A program made the translations under genes and the position numbers. Source: Methanothrix sp. (GTDB lineage: Archaea; Halobacteriota; Methanosarcinia; Methanotrichales; Methanotrichaceae). From it: 40,827 nucleotides of DNA. Below are positions 5,576 through 28,470 of the stretch, one piece after another. The DNA is taken from assembly GCA_017994055.1 (NCBI GenBank), contig JAGOLL010000014.1, positions 1-40,827 of the forward strand, given 5' to 3'. The notes under the pieces were generated by a model. That model saw only the letters and a list, made by a program, of their open reading frames with translations, ran no database searches and was not told the DNA's origin. Position 1 is the first letter of the stretch; every line of letters starts with the position of its first letter.

Positions 5576-5613
5576 TAGAGGAATAGATCCTCATCGTATA
5601 GGAGGGCCTGCTC

Positions 5614-6243
5614 ATGGATAGCTTCACAGTTTATGCTTCTCTTTACCTGGTCGGATTTGCCGCCCTGCACAGCCTTCTGGCCAGCCTGCCGGTCAAGAAC
5701 ATGGCTCGCAGGCGCTTCGGCCCCCGGGTGGACCCCTGGTATCCCGTATTCTTCTCCGCCTCGGCGGCCATCACCTTTCTTCCCCTGGTCGCCCTGATCA
5801 TTTACCGGCCGGGGCCGATGCTTTACATCCTGCCCAGCCCCTGGACCTGGCTATTCTTCGCCCTGCAGCTCCTCATAGGCCTCGCTTCCCTGAGGGCCTT
5901 TCTGGATGCGCCGCATCGCTTTCTGATCCGGGCCCAGCTCGCCGGGCCGGAAAGTTCCCAGGCATTTGCTTTGGGGATAAAAGGGATCTACTGCTGGATC
6001 CGGGACCCCTTTCTCCTCTCCGGATTTCTTCTCCTCTGGCTGACGCCGTTTATGACCGAGAATATGCTTCCGGTCTACCTCCTGGCCACGGTCTATCTAT
6101 TCCTGGGCTCACTACACTGGGAGAGCAGGCTGGCACACCAGTTCGGGCAGGAGTATGCGGCTTATAAAAAGGAGGTGCAGCGCATGATTCCGGGCCGGAG
6201 ATGGAAGGGATGCCGGGGCCACGGCGGGTCGGGATTGAATTGA
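5614..6243 (+). CDS. ICMT/NnrU-like integral membrane methyltransferase-family protein
   Basis: Membrane protein of 209 residues with about five hydrophobic segments (residues 5-27, 42-65, 75-98, 122-150 and 150-165). The C-terminal third matches the isoprenylcysteine carboxyl methyltransferase/PEMT pattern: GIYCWIRDPFLLSGF (the RHP-like SAM-binding turn) and then HWESRLAHQFGQEYAAYKKE followed by QRMIPG. Those enzymes methylate membrane-embedded lipids or prenylated groups using SAM; in archaea the substrate is unknown. The start follows a strong ribosome site, GGAGGG at 5601-5606. It lies 38 bases after uvsE on the same strand and may be co-transcribed with it. The family is clear; enzymatic role is inferred. 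Confidence 0.75.
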   Translation: MDSFTVYASLYLVGFAALHSLLASLPVKNMARRRFGPRVDPWYPVFFSASAAITFLPLVALIIYRPGPMLYILPSPWTWLFFALQLLIGLASLRAFLDAPHRFLIRAQLAGPESSQAFALGIKGIYCWIRDPFLLSGFLLLWLTPFMTENMLPVYLLATVYLFLGSLHWESRLAHQFGQEYAAYKKEVQRMIPGRRWKGCRGHGGSGLN

Positions 6244-6265
6244 AATCGACTCTCCGAGCATTGTA

Positions 6266-6526
6266 TTAACTTCCTCCCGGATCGGGATCTTTCTTGCCCG
6301 CGCTCTGCCCTTCCATCTTTTTCATCAGCTCTATCAGGGCGGAGAATACCGCCGCCTCCAGGGGATCATCCAGGGCATAAAAGGCCTCGCTGGAGTGCTT
6401 CTTGGCCATTGCTGCCAGCTCCTTTGCATAACCCTGGTCCTCCTTTTTCATGGCCCGGCCGGCTCTGGCCCAGCGGGCGGATACCTCTGCCGCACCCATG
6501 CGAACGCTCTCAAAGCTGCGCCCCAT
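6266..6526 (-). CDS. Small conserved archaeal protein of unknown function
   Basis: An 86-residue soluble, charged, helical protein (SFESVRMGAAEVSARWARA, then KKHSSEAFYALDDPLEAAVFSALIEL). I recall similar short proteins in haloarchaea and methanogens, always uncharacterised; no domain name can be given. Its ATG overlaps the stop codon of the upstream gene by one base (TGATG), so it is translationally coupled to the RecA-like protein encoded by 6526-7041, and the two are probably one functional unit. It ends about 20 bases from the convergent membrane methyltransferase gene. Confidence 0.7.
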   Translation of the reverse strand: MGRSFESVRMGAAEVSARWARAGRAMKKEDQGYAKELAAMAKKHSSEAFYALDDPLEAAVFSALIELMKKMEGQSAGKKDPDPGGS

Positions 6527-7041
6527 CAGAAGGCCTCCAGGGTCTTCTGGTTGCTCTGAGCCTGCGCCTTTCTGCAGCTCTTAGCAGAAGGCCTCGGCGC
6601 GCCGTCCGGGCCTCGTCCAAAGTAGAATACTCTATCGGCATAGTCGGTCATCATCTCCAGAAATGGGTCGGATGCGGGGGAGTATAGTAGAACTGTGCTC
6701 TCCCTGGCCGCAGCTTTCATGGCCTGGGATAGGTACTCGGTCATCTCCTCTGCATCCTGATACAGAAGCGGATCGTGCTCTATGATCAGCAGGCTGTGGC
6801 AGCTCTCCTCAAGCACGGTCATGAGCTGGAAGACGGTGAAGGCCCGGCGGATCTGCAGGGAGGTGAATTTGCGGTCCAGGTTGCTCAGGATCCGGGAGTA
6901 GTTGCCGCAGACAAATAGGACCTCAAACCTCTGCAAGTCCAGGTGCCGGTTCAGAGCTGCGGTGAGCATGGGCAGAGGCGCCACCAGTATATGCCAGGCC
7001 CTGTCCTGGAGGGTAATGGAAGGATGCAGCTCGAGGTCCAT
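6526..7041 (-). CDS. RecA/RadB-fold-like protein lacking a Walker A motif
   Basis: Unrecognised protein of 171 residues. What can be seen is a likely alternating alpha/beta core: FEVLFVCGNYS (strand), LQIRRAFTVFQLMTVLEE, a Walker-B-like strand SLLIIEHDPLLY, then STVLLYSPASDPFLEMMTDYADRVFYFG, which resembles the strand order of RadB/KaiC-type ATPases. No P-loop GxxxxGK[ST] occurs, so it is unlikely to hydrolyse ATP by itself. The last 30 residues are basic, polar and probably disordered. It forms a coupled two-gene unit with the 86-residue protein downstream and is divergent from the beta-CASP nuclease. A scaffold or regulatory role is inference; the RecA-fold reading rests on motif order only. 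Confidence 0.6.
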   Translation of the reverse strand: MDLELHPSITLQDRAWHILVAPLPMLTAALNRHLDLQRFEVLFVCGNYSRILSNLDRKFTSLQIRRAFTVFQLMTVLEESCHSLLIIEHDPLLYQDAEEMTEYLSQAMKAAARESTVLLYSPASDPFLEMMTDYADRVFYFGRGPDGAPRPSAKSCRKAQAQSNQKTLEAF

Positions 7042-24761: not shown

Positions 24762-24848
24762 ACCAAAAAATATTTATACTAACAATACCTACATCAGCTT
24801 ATATTAACGGATGTATGGGGTGAGATTATTAAGACCATAGGAATTGCA
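24762..24848 (+). promoter_or_regulatory. Promoter and leader of type A gene 1, with a 9-codon ORF
   Basis: BRE/TATA reads CCAAAAAATATTTATACT (24763-24780), a near-ideal archaeal promoter, so transcription should begin about 24800. An ATG at 24811, 38 bases after the TATA first base, opens a 9-codon frame ending at TAG 24838-24840. In the paralogue A3 the start ATG lies at the identical distance (38) and is in frame. Here it is out of frame with the gene; a one-base backward slip at GGGG (24817-24820) would join the two. Confidence 0.7.
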
Positions 24849-25313
24849 ATGGTATTGGCAGTAGCCATGTTGTCCGTCTCTGCTCTGGCAGGATGTGACG
24901 GTGAAGGCGTTCTCGCATCGGGAATATTTGAGACCGCGGAATCTTCGATAAAGTTCCCCGCCGGTCAAGACACCAACATTGACTCCCTGGAGGTTGGAAA
25001 CGACAAAGCCCTGGCTTATGGAAGCATCTTCATGAAGACGCCCAAGGCCACAGCGGTCAACAACCTGGAGATCAAGAAGAATCAGGATTCTGGAGCCTGC
25101 GCCAATGGGATGGGTCCCAATGGATGCTGTATGAATCAGTTGGCTTCAACTGAGCAAACTCAAGGAAAGAGCACATCACTGTGGACCAGTGATTGCACCG
25201 ACTGCTGCATCAAGGTGAATGTAGATCAGATCAAGGTCGGCAACAGAGATGCTCTGGCCTTCGGATTTGCCGCAGCAGAGAACAACGTCAAGATCGTCGC
25301 CAATCAGCGCTAA
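24849..25313 (+). CDS. Secreted Cys-rich two-repeat protein, type A copy 1
   Basis: Unnamed protein of 154 residues from ATG 24849, with AGGA six bases upstream. The N-terminus (VLAVAMLSVSALAGC) is a hydrophobic signal core without the usual basic n-region, ending ALA|GC, which fits a signal peptidase site or a LAGC lipobox. The mature part has two imperfect repeats, residues 43-79 and 124-153, of pattern [I/V]xxV G(N/G)xxAxA(Y/F)G...NN[LV]xI..NQ, around a cysteine-rich centre (C84, C93, C94, C116, C119, C120). Both repeats look like beta strands ending in Asn-Gln. It is 143/154 identical to copy 2. A1 lacks a type B partner and ends in a hairpin terminator. Cell-envelope or sheath role is inference; the start is uncertain (see the leader). 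Confidence 0.75.
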   Translation: MVLAVAMLSVSALAGCDGEGVLASGIFETAESSIKFPAGQDTNIDSLEVGNDKALAYGSIFMKTPKATAVNNLEIKKNQDSGACANGMGPNGCCMNQLASTEQTQGKSTSLWTSDCTDCCIKVNVDQIKVGNRDALAFGFAAAENNVKIVANQR

Positions 25314-25346
25314 ATGACGGATATTGATATTAAAGATTTTGACCTA

Positions 25347-25385
25347 GCCCGCTAGCCCCGGTTAGTGGGCATTATTTTATTCTTT
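25347..25385 (+). terminator. Hairpin plus T-rich tail after A1
   Basis: GCCCGCTA (25347-25354) pairs with TAGTGGGC (25363-25370) in an eight-pair stem with one G-T pair and an eight-base loop, followed by ATTATTTTATTCTTTT. This separates A1 from the downstream copy and explains why A1 is monocistronic. Confidence 0.65.
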
Positions 25386-25661
25386 TAAATTGCCTGCAAA
25401 TTCAAAAAACTGCATGGACCCTAAAAACAAATAATCTAAAAATAGACTTTTCACAAGCTTCACCTGATGTAAAGGAGGTCTAATAATAACTTAATATACA
25501 ATTTTATATGATATCTTATTCTCAAAATTTATAGAATTAATTTTTATTGTTTTAAAGAAATTGACATTAGATAATGCTATCAATCATTTTTATTGATAAA
25601 TAATCTAAGAATATATTTTTTATATCATAAGCATTTTGAAATGCTAAATTTAGTATGTAGT
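25386..25661. other. AT-rich spacer between A1 and A2
   Basis: About 275 bases of AT-rich DNA with no gene. An inverted repeat GCATTT-TG-AAATGC (25631-25644) is placed 900 bases after the palindrome upstream of A1, so at the same distance from the TATA box, although the two dyads differ in sequence. Confidence 0.4.
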
Positions 25662-25748
25662 ACCAAAAAATATTTATACTAACAATACCTACATCAGCTT
25701 ATATTAACTGATGTATGGGGTGAGATTATTAAGACCATAGGAATTGCA
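25662..25748 (+). promoter_or_regulatory. Promoter and leader of type A gene 2
   Basis: Identical to the A1 promoter and leader over 24763-24848 except one base (G24809 against T25709), at an offset of exactly 900. TATA is at 25673-25680, the displaced ATG at 25711 and the short ORF stop at 25738-25740. Upstream of 25662 the two copies diverge, marking one edge of the duplication. Confidence 0.7.
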
Positions 25749-26213
25749 ATGGTATTGGCAGTAGCCATGTTGTCCGTCTCTGCTCTGGCAGGGTGCGACG
25801 GTGAGGCCGTTCTCGCAACGGGAATATTTGAAACCGAGGAGTCCTCCATAAATTTCCCCGCCGGTCAAGACACCAACATTGACTCCCTGGAAGTTGGAAA
25901 CGACAAAGCCCTGGCTTATGGAAGCATCTTCATGAAGACGCCCAAGGCCACAGCCGTCAACAACCTGGAGATCAAGAAGAATCAGGATTCTGGAGCCTGC
26001 GCCAATGGGGTGGGTCCGAATGGATGTTGCATGAATCAGTTGGCTTCAACTGAGCAGACTCAGGGAAAGACTGCATCGCTATCGACCAGTGATTGCACTG
26101 ACTGCTGCATCAAGGTGAATGTGGATCAGATCAAGGTCGGCAACAGAGATGCCCTGGCCTTCGGATTTGCCGCAGCAGAGAACAACGTCAAGATATGTGC
26201 CGATCAGAAGTAA
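25749..26213 (+). CDS. Secreted Cys-rich two-repeat protein, type A copy 2
   Basis: Tandem duplicate of copy 1, 154 residues, aligned without gaps at a 900-base offset. I count eleven differences, among them A30E, K35N, W112S and, in the last repeat, V150C, which adds an eighth cysteine near the C-terminus. The repeat pattern, signal core ending ALA|GC and central Cys cluster are kept. Unlike copy 1 it is followed, 28 bases after the stop, by a type B gene with a strong ribosome site, so A2-B2 form an operon. The N-terminal start problem is the same as for copy 1. Confidence 0.75.
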   Translation: MVLAVAMLSVSALAGCDGEAVLATGIFETEESSINFPAGQDTNIDSLEVGNDKALAYGSIFMKTPKATAVNNLEIKKNQDSGACANGVGPNGCCMNQLASTEQTQGKTASLSTSDCTDCCIKVNVDQIKVGNRDALAFGFAAAENNVKICADQK

Positions 26214-26241
26214 GATCTCTGCTTTAATCCAGGAGGAACAA

Positions 26242-26910
26242 ATGAAGATGTCGAAGTTGCCCGCTGGCCTGGGGCTTGCGGGAATTATTTTTATCTGCAT
26301 ATGTGCCGTTTCGGCATCATCTGTGCCCCAGCTAGATGTCAATGAGCAGCTCAATAAATTCAAGGATAATTCCATTCATCCTCTCCGCCATGATAAAAGC
26401 CCTGATTGGGGCGTGCTGGAAGCGGGAGGAGAGACAATATACTTCCCCTGGCACGGCTCATCCCTGCCCGGTCGGCCGGCTATTTCCAGGCCAGCCTCAC
26501 TGGCTCCGGTTAGAGAGGAGATTATGATGGATGCCAACAACTCATCCGCGAGATTGGATGAACTTCTGGTCATAAACTCTGTAAAGGAGAGGGATGTGAT
26601 AGAGAGAAGCTCCCAGAATGGAGATACTGAAGATATGGGACCATCAAATGCCCTCATGATCGATGTGGGAGGCGAAGGCGAGGAGACGGAGTCTCCCAAC
26701 TATGAAGCGGATGATATTGCAGCCGGCGGTCCGGGCTCTGGACGTGGTGATATAAGATATGCCGGCAATTACCTGACGGTCAATGTCCATGATATCAAGG
26801 TCACCGCCGTGAACAGCATGCCGGATGGCAATGCCGTGGCCACATCAAATATCATCATCGAGCCGGTGCAGACCATAGTAATCCCCTCCGAGGTCCATCA
26901 GAAGATTTGA
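26242..26910 (+). CDS. Secreted type B protein, partner of A2
   Basis: Unnamed 222-residue protein with a signal peptide (residues 1-27: basic KMSK, hydrophobic LGLAGIIFICICAVSA, cleavage near ASS). AGGAGG at 26231-26236 lies five bases before the ATG. The middle is polar, acidic and Ser/Gly-rich and probably unstructured, with a motif INSVKERDV ... QNGD shared with the other B protein. The C-terminal 50 residues (LTVNVHDIKVTAVNSMPDG, ATSNIIIEPVQ) read as a single copy of the repeat found twice in type A proteins (VNVDQIKVG..., ENNVKIVANQ). This shared unit suggests A and B co-assemble outside the cell; that is inference. Confidence 0.75.
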   Translation: MKMSKLPAGLGLAGIIFICICAVSASSVPQLDVNEQLNKFKDNSIHPLRHDKSPDWGVLEAGGETIYFPWHGSSLPGRPAISRPASLAPVREEIMMDANNSSARLDELLVINSVKERDVIERSSQNGDTEDMGPSNALMIDVGGEGEETESPNYEADDIAAGGPGSGRGDIRYAGNYLTVNVHDIKVTAVNSMPDGNAVATSNIIIEPVQTIVIPSEVHQKI

Positions 26911-27251
26911 TGGCCTCGAATTCACCTATTTTAGATTCTTGATGCACATAGGCTTGGATCTCTTCAGCCTGTTTCGCTTTTTCTGCGAGTCGTCTCCCTG
27001 AGCCTGATGAGACAGACCATTATTGAGTGAGCCTATAACTATAATCCCCATTTCCGAATTGGCGGTTCTGCTGCGGATATCGTATTCGCTTCCTTTTTCC
27101 GGCTAAAACCGGGGTTTTTAGGAGTTCTCTATATTCCGCCTCTATCCCATTTTCATCATGGTCATTCCCCCCTACTATTATGATTCAAGCATATCTTATG
27201 TAAAATTTCTTACCAAGAATATTCACTTTAATCTATCAATTCCTAAAAATA
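26911..27251. other. Intergenic region between B2 and A3
   Basis: About 340 bases without a gene. CCGG-CTAAAA-CCGG followed by GGTTTTTAG (27101-27124) is a weak hairpin with a T run and may terminate the A2-B2 transcript. The right half is AT-rich and leads into the A3 promoter. The part 26940-27070 is GC-balanced but shows no protein-like frame. Confidence 0.35.
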
Positions 27252-27301
27252 AACACCAAAAAATTTATATATAATTGGTTCATAGTAGAGGTACAATCAA
27301 C
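27252..27301 (+). promoter_or_regulatory. Promoter of type A gene 3
   Basis: CCAAAAAATTTATATATAA (27256-27274) is a strong BRE/TATA element with TATA from 27264, 38 bases before ATG 27302. Spacing and BRE match the A1 and A2 promoters, although the leader sequence differs. Confidence 0.65.
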
Positions 27302-27739
27302 ATGAGTTTATGGGGTGAGACTATTAGAAAGATAATCTTTGCACTGGCTATGGCACTGGCCGTCTTCGCGGTCCCTGCTATGGCGCAATGTGGCTCGAGC
27401 GAAGTACTGGAAATGGGTGTCTATGAGACGGCAGATACTGCTTTTACCATCCCGGCCAAAGCAGATGTAAATCATGACCAGTTGACCGTTGGAGGCGATG
27501 TGGCGATTGCCTTGCTTGGCGGCAATGCTGAGAACGATCTGAAGATCAAGAAGAACCAGGACTCTGGCGATTGCTCCTGCTGCGCACCGGTCAATCAAGT
27601 TTGCAGCGACTGCTGCAATAAAGTCAATGTGGAGGACTTGGCGGTAGGAGGCAGAGTTGCGATAGCCCTTGGTAATGGAAATCCACAATTGTTTACTAAG
27701 GCCAAGAACAAAGTAGAGATCGTGACCAACCAGTGCTGA
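27302..27739 (+). CDS. Secreted Cys-rich two-repeat protein, type A copy 3
   Basis: Diverged paralogue of A1/A2, 145 residues, with a complete signal peptide: SLWGETIRKIIFALAMALAVFAVPAMA then QC, cleavage before Q29. The DNA TGGGGTGAGA...ATTA is recognisably the same as the A1/A2 leader, which is what shows that A1/A2 have lost the in-frame ATG. Mature repeats are DQLTVGGDVAIALLGGNAENDLKIKKNQDSG and EDLAVGGRVAIALGNG...KNKVEIVTNQ, around DCSCC...VCSDCC; a Cys is also the last residue. ATG 27302 is preferred to a TTG at 27275 by the TATA distance. It is followed after 35 bases by a type B gene. Confidence 0.8.
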   Translation: MSLWGETIRKIIFALAMALAVFAVPAMAQCGSSEVLEMGVYETADTAFTIPAKADVNHDQLTVGGDVAIALLGGNAENDLKIKKNQDSGDCSCCAPVNQVCSDCCNKVNVEDLAVGGRVAIALGNGNPQLFTKAKNKVEIVTNQC

Positions 27740-27774
27740 ACTTTGGGTCTGGCAACCGGCCCCGAGGAGGCTAA

Positions 27775-28470
27775 ATGGAAAACAAGCTGAAACCCACCGG
27801 CCTTATGCTGGTGGGGGCTACTTTTATTTGCATGAGCATTCTCATTGGGGCGGCCAGTGGCGCGGAGCATGCCAGCCTGCCCGATCTGCAGGGCAAGCTC
27901 AAGGAGACCACATCACTCAGGCTTATTCTGAGCGAGCAGTTGAAGGGCTCGGATATTGCTCCCAAGACCCCTCCGACCAAGCAGTCGATTCCGCTCTCAT
28001 CCGATGATCCATCCGCCCAGATTTCGGATCTTACTGCCATCAACTCCGTGGCGGAGAGGGATGTCGTCTTCGATGAGCAGCAAAACGGCGACCCCAATGC
28101 CAGGGGTCTGGTCAATTCCCTGGGAGTGAGCGTCATCGGCGACCAAGCCGAGATGGAGGAGAGCTGGTCGGAAGAGGAGATTGACTGGGATTCAATCGCG
28201 ACGGAAGATGTGGAGAAGATCGTGGACGATGCCATAAATTCCAGCCCTGTAGGCAGCAAGGAGCTATTGGGCATTTCAGCCTACAAGTCCCTGTCAGCTC
28301 AAGAGGCGCCGAGGCAGCTAGGAAATAATCTCAAGATAGATGTCAAAGGCGTCTCGGTAACCGCTCTAAACACTGCTGAAGGGGGCCGCGCCGAGGCCAC
28401 ATCCAATATCATCATCAAACCGGTGCAGATGATAATCTGCCCCTCCGAGGTGGGGGAGAAGCTGAAGTGA
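27775..28470 (+). CDS. Secreted type B protein, partner of A3
   Basis: A 231-residue paralogue of the B protein after A2. Signal peptide 1-29 (KLKPTGLMLVGATFICMSILIGAASG then AE). GAGGAGG lies five bases before the ATG. The central part shares INSVAERDVV ... QNGD with B2 but carries an extra acidic stretch (about residues 120-150). The C-terminal unit NNLKIDVKGVSVTALNTAEGG, ATSNIIIKPVQ, ICPSEVGEKL is the conserved half and again fits the type A repeat pattern. A free Cys (ICPSE) replaces the Val/Ile of B2. Same operon as A3. Function unknown. Confidence 0.75.
   Translation: MENKLKPTGLMLVGATFICMSILIGAASGAEHASLPDLQGKLKETTSLRLILSEQLKGSDIAPKTPPTKQSIPLSSDDPSAQISDLTAINSVAERDVVFDEQQNGDPNARGLVNSLGVSVIGDQAEMEESWSEEEIDWDSIATEDVEKIVDDAINSSPVGSKELLGISAYKSLSAQEAPRQLGNNLKIDVKGVSVTALNTAEGGRAEATSNIIIKPVQMIICPSEVGEKLK

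Follow-up and report, generated by a model that had tools for sequence, protein, structure and literature searches.

What could a tandem array of small secreted repeat proteins be doing at the surface of Methanothrix, a methanogen that forms filaments and is a major consumer of acetate? Partners for assembly or for the plugs were not found when sheath genes were surveyed (PMC11576556). The window analysed here, a stretch of 40,827 nucleotides, is one contig (C50) of a 2.38 Mb draft genome, the close relatives of which are Methanothrix/Methanosaeta MAGs, in agreement with the Methanothrix setting assumed in the initial annotation. Between positions 24762 and 28470, on the plus strand, it carries three genes of type A (products of ~140 aa) and two of type B (~200 aa) in the order A1, A2-B1, A3-B2, flanked by genes that, as named from their translations, are DNA polymerase II small-subunit-like and histidyl-tRNA-synthetase-like. 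All five previously annotated genes are present in this order and on this strand, and signal peptides were found, which bears out the earlier claim that the products are secreted:

24828..25313, + strand: A1, secreted two-repeat protein; probable start ATT at 24828 (or 24825), other genera using ATG at the corresponding place
25728..26213, + strand: A2, secreted two-repeat protein; probable start ATT at 25728 (or 25725)
26242..26910, + strand: B1, secreted partner; ATG start 28 nt past the A2 stop, preceded by GGAGG
27302..27739, + strand: A3, secreted two-repeat protein; in-frame ATG at 27302
27775..28470, + strand: B2, secreted partner of A3; ATG start 35 nt past the A3 stop

A1 and A2 are near-identical tandem copies, promoters included (93% protein identity), and A3 is ~50% identical to A1. 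No B gene lies directly downstream of A1; A2 and B1 are probably co-transcribed. The A-A-B-A-B order of the window recurs in its closest relative (G016). On another contig of the same genome (C82; L028 6149-7597) this gene order is inverted, a diverged B gene preceding a diverged A gene.

The start codons of the A genes required separate attention. The following signals precede the A genes of the window:

24762..24778, + strand: BRE/TATA-like promoter element of A1, ACCAAAAAATATTTATA, read directly from the sequence; near-identical before A2
24817..24824, + strand: Shine-Dalgarno sequence of A1, GGGGTGAG; this or a close variant is kept in nearly all A genes
25662..25678, + strand: promoter element of A2, ACCAAAAAATATTTATA
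27255..27273, + strand: promoter element of A3, ACCAAAAAATTTATATA

Most A genes of the genus are preceded by a similar ACCAAAAAATATAAATA element. Neither A1 nor A2 has an ATG, GTG or TTG ahead of the hydrophobic core of the signal peptide, and the starts proposed by the ORF caller (24849 for A1 and 25749 for A2) were rejected, both being located inside the signal peptide. When 82 A genes were scanned, the start was assigned to ATT, ATC or ATA in 67 and to ATG in 13; the remaining two were not resolved by the scan and have ATC at the start position by eye. No canonical in-frame start is present between the upstream stop and the ATT/ATC/ATA codon in 56 of the 67 genes, and in about ten the upstream stop falls within four codons of the start position. 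The GGGGTGAG-type Shine-Dalgarno sequence lies a few bases upstream of the AUU/AUC/AUA position (in the window, at 24825-24830 and 25725-25730, and in loci L028-L067 and L107-L135), and the ATG-bearing A genes, which belong to other genera, have their ATG there or at most one codon away. A3 has an ATT (27323) at the position homologous to the start of its relatives. Initiation at AUU/AUC/AUA yields a normal signal peptide (M-K/R-K/R-hydrophobic-AxA), whereas initiation at the next canonical codon removes the basic n-region. B genes have an aligned Met at the start, and the same scan over 813 kb of other genes returned seven candidates, most with a nearby ATG or TTG. Collectively, these features predict that most A genes lack a usable AUG, GUG or UUG and are initiated at AUU, AUC or AUA, which would represent an unusual non-AUG initiation retained across a whole archaeal gene family; automatic annotation would then cut the A proteins short within the signal peptide. 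A thioredoxin-reductase-like gene (L029 375-1298; homologues in L038, L046 and L047) also has no ATG near its start; it was dropped as a case of AUU initiation because an in-frame TTG two codons on serves equally well.

Behind the signal peptide, the A proteins continue with a short N-terminal stretch of the GIFET type, after which a variable linker separates repeat 1 (TNxDxLxVGNDKALAxG...AxAxNNLEIKKNQ) from repeat 2 (VNxDQIxVGNRxAxAxGxAxAxNNVKIVxNQ), each repeat being ~35 aa long. The B proteins end in a unit with the pattern NYMDIDVSGITVxAINxxxGGSAxATSNIxIxPVQ, which in each genus is better conserved than any other stretch of B. The units of the window are as follows:

24972..25085, + strand: A1 repeat 1, profile E 2e-6
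25200..25310, + strand: A1 repeat 2, the tag-like unit, profile E 2.8e-16
25872..25985, + strand: A2 repeat 1, profile match
26100..26210, + strand: A2 repeat 2, profile E 6.4e-16
26767..26871, + strand: B1 C-terminal unit, NYLTVNVHDIKVTAVNSMPDGNAVATSNIIIEPVQ
27458..27559, + strand: A3 repeat 1, profile E 4e-4
27608..27736, + strand: A3 repeat 2, profile E 8.3e-13
28324..28428, + strand: B2 C-terminal unit, NNLKIDVKGVSVTALNTAEGGRAEATSNIIIKPVQ

Profile comparison leaves no doubt about the homology of the two A repeats (hhalign E 8.5e-14 and 2.2e-14). The B unit resembles them over its last 16-18 residues, roughly AxAxxNxxIxxxQ, which correspond to the second half of the repeat. HMMER alone was insufficient to establish this match. 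In profile alignment, repeat 1 scored 18.8 against B, where none of 300 column-shuffled controls was as high (maximum 15.3), and repeat 2 scored 15.5, a value reached by one shuffle in 300; column shuffling also breaks the beta-strand alternation, and the control thus tilts somewhat toward an A-B match. The similarity is real but weak. Of the building block that the initial annotation had assigned to all five proteins, the two homologous copies in each A protein are confirmed, and the copy in B holds in the weaker form of a resemblance limited to the last 16-18 residues.

A second element of that annotation was the cysteine cluster of the A proteins, with a Cys-crosslinked sheath component as one possible reading. 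The mature A1, A2 and A3 proteins do contain about 7, 8 and 8 Cys, respectively, with CxxC and CC motifs, as would be expected if the A proteins were cross-linked or redox/metal proteins with the cluster as functional core. However, mature homologues contain 0-7 Cys across 82 sequences, with eight lacking Cys altogether, and most of these residues are located in the variable linker, outside the repeats. Because the cluster is not conserved, cross-linking through Cys is not a general mechanism of the A family, nor its defining feature; the Cys-core reading is largely refuted for the family, and we consider it very improbable.

AlphaFold2 models A with moderate confidence (pLDDT 67, pTM 0.47) as an all-beta protein devoid of helices, with three strands per repeat and about eight strands in total; the model of B is poor and mostly of low confidence (pLDDT 54, pTM 0.22). 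A fold search with the A model yielded no PDB match at E<=10 and insignificant matches in a viral library. Searches of Pfam, NCBIfam, PHROGs and PDB sequences with the five proteins and the profiles returned chance-level matches only, curlin (PF07012) matched none of the window proteins and, at E 0.1, none of 57 A members, and viral contigs yielded no relative. A and B thus appear to belong to none of the known families searched.

Profile searches uncovered the A module in 47 of 50 Methanotrichaceae genomes, representing 11 of 11 genera, and B likewise in 47 of 50. Single-sequence searches had recovered the A/B pair in 22 of 41 relatives, all from one genus; the family-wide spread became visible because profiles were used instead. 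An apparent absence of A from one genus (g9) in single-sequence and A3-profile searches was overturned when the B profile revealed a diverged A-B pair. Two of the three genomes without matches are <60% complete; the third (G011, 94%) is the only fairly complete family genome in which neither A nor B was detected, a possible lineage loss. Three genomes (G111, G004 and G243) we take to be those of M. thermoacetophila PT, M. soehngenii GP6 and M. harundinacea 6Ac; the first, the probable type strain, encodes the pair in L119 (A, 6074-6547; B, 5591-6058). Beyond the family, an A profile (A5) matched nothing in the 188 other genomes of the class. Three other matches were set aside: an A match in G173 (E 0.005), in an arginine-rich, probably non-coding frame; a B match in G072, limited to 120 bases at the start of one contig of an unrelated MAG and probably mis-binned DNA; and a marginal B match in G075 (E 0.002). 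No expression data for the A/B genes were found in the literature searched.

A and B had been viewed as a matched pair, and this view is supported. B directly follows A on the same strand for 61 of the 82 A genes, mostly within 42 nt or with overlapping open frames, the other 21 being solo A genes. The A and B trees are correlated (r 0.85), and when partners were swapped between the two cassettes within 14 loci, none of 1000 random trials did as well as the cognate arrangement. This shows that A-B cassettes duplicate and diverge as units. The pattern is compatible with a physical interaction between A and B, but cognate pairing may also result from whole-cassette duplication rather than binding.

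The A-repeat profile also matches much larger, unrelated secreted proteins. In 16 of 19 larger ORFs with clear matches, each with one or two copies, the repeat ends no more than five residues before the C-terminus, and in the other three it comes immediately behind the signal peptide; further examples come from L108, L109, L114 and L117. By Pfam, the tagged proteins are unrelated (Phosphoesterase PF04185, purple acid phosphatase/Metallophos, C39 peptidase-like, Cohesin, VWA, DUF11/DUF7507 and YCF48-like), and the set includes a VWA/DUF11 protein and DUF11/SdrD proteins of up to 1758 aa. The genome of the window encodes two such proteins (401 aa on contig C100 and 252 aa on contig C72). The genomes taken as M. 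thermoacetophila, M. soehngenii and M. harundinacea encode few or none, so that tagging is not a core function of the A-B pair: the pair is the core and the tagged proteins are accessory. In L144 (1630-4383), a 918-aa ORF fuses a phospholipase-C-like phosphoesterase to a purple-acid-type phosphatase, and in L143 the two enzyme types are separate neighbouring tagged genes. In one recurrent secreted family, the proteins contain FEDLLRRQAILL-type segments together with a DUF7507/DUF11-like domain and bear the A module terminally (L117 4439-5794, L114 3950-5185, L147 1275-2477, L150, L153 and L154). L118 (3315-3566) keeps just the 84-aa tag end of a FEDLL-type protein in open frame, probably a frameshifted or broken gene.

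An extreme-terminal position on unrelated cargo is what one would see if the repeat were a secretion or processing signal that is recognized and then removed, as is the type IX CTD. This is difficult to reconcile with the free-standing A protein, which is nothing but the module, with the three proteins that carry the repeat at the mature N-terminus and with the Sec-type signal peptide that, by inspection, is already present in all hosts with an intact N-terminus; no dedicated translocon or protease was identified either, and we regard such a role as decidedly unlikely. Terminal binding modules are common on exoenzymes, and the conserved Asn/Gln and Gly residues could form a binding face, so that the repeat might instead bind a polysaccharide or metal and attach the enzymes to a non-protein matrix. 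A ligand-binding domain would nevertheless leave unexplained the obligate-looking B partner with its related C-terminal unit, and the repeat has no similarity to the carbohydrate-binding families of Pfam; this possibility is improbable, if less so than a secretion signal.

The occurrence of the same repeat as a terminal tag on many secreted proteins supports the other half of the earlier proposal, namely that A is an assembling subunit. Signal peptides are present, the A repeats are homologous, A and B occur in matched pairs and across the family, and the repeat sits terminally on diverse secreted proteins. From these observations we tentatively propose, at slightly less than an even chance, that A is a docking and assembly module and B its dedicated partner, both forming an extracellular scaffold joined by tagged exoenzymes. 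A would act as a free-standing, secreted, beta-rich module of two three-stranded repeats and a variable linker, whereas B, encoded in the same operon and ending in an invariant unit with the same end motif, would probably pair with it. Together they would build a scaffold on Methanothrix-type filaments, onto or into which secreted proteins ending in an A repeat would dock instead of being anchored in the membrane. The repeats might interact directly, strand addition being one way; A and B might polymerize, with the scaffold located on or in the sheath, and B might nucleate or anchor it. A broader version, in which Methanotrichaceae possess an extracellular assembly system of their own, comprising A, B and the exoenzymes and adhesin-like proteins loaded through terminal repeats, with AUU/AUC/AUA starts in the subunit genes that possibly set the A:B ratio, is unlikely on balance.

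Alternatively, A and the tags could bind SH-type hoops or the cell-separating plugs directly, as accessory sheath or plug proteins that form no polymer of their own. The A/B pair is confined to Methanotrichaceae, which form sheathed filaments, SH proteins are reported in all Methanotrichales and the sheath-assembly and plug proteins are still to be found (PMC11576556); furthermore, extra densities have been seen near the plugs of Methanospirillum (PMC10593813). Conversely, SH-type sheaths are also reported in Methanospirillum and ANME-1 (PMC11576556), whereas A/B were not detected in other sampled genera of the phylum, a sample that may not include these two, and the tag profile, applied at E 1e-3 to 394 genomes of the phylum, matched none beyond the family. 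No conserved sheath gene adjoins A/B in the loci inspected, and in the presumed M. thermoacetophila genome the sole match of the tag profile is the A gene itself, with no sheath protein matched. An accessory role of this kind is a minority possibility. With the scaffold reading preferred, the A/B pair and the tags suggest a previously undescribed form of extracellular scaffold building and protein docking; a family-wide secreted pair and a terminal tag provide concrete candidates for building the filament surface, and protein display on Methanothrix filaments becomes directly testable.

Several known systems resemble parts of this one. Like the SH and MspA sheath proteins, A and B are secreted, beta-rich and encoded by tandemly duplicated genes in the same organisms, but the published SH proteins are a separate family with cores of two six-stranded antiparallel beta-sheets and cap domains (PMC11576556), and MspA is 60.9 kDa (PMC6242892), compared with ~140 aa for A and ~200 aa for B. 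The curli pair CsgA/CsgB would be similar in its workings, with a small secreted repeat protein, a partner sharing the repeat end and strands rich in Asn, Gln, Gly and Ala; A and B, however, have no curlin match in Pfam, only two repeats and no outer membrane secretion apparatus. The type IX CTD, dockerin and PGF-CTERM are likewise short conserved domains, found at the very C-terminal end of secreted proteins that are otherwise unrelated, whereas the A tag shows no transmembrane segment or basic tail and no LPXTG-like or dockerin motif, matches nothing in Pfam or NCBIfam and also exists as a free-standing, operon-encoded module. Finally, the AUU start codons of E. coli infC and pcnB are a precedent for AUU initiation with a Shine-Dalgarno sequence as predicted for the A genes, the difference being that here a whole family of archaeal secreted proteins would rely on AUU, AUC or AUA, with AUG in its place in other genera.
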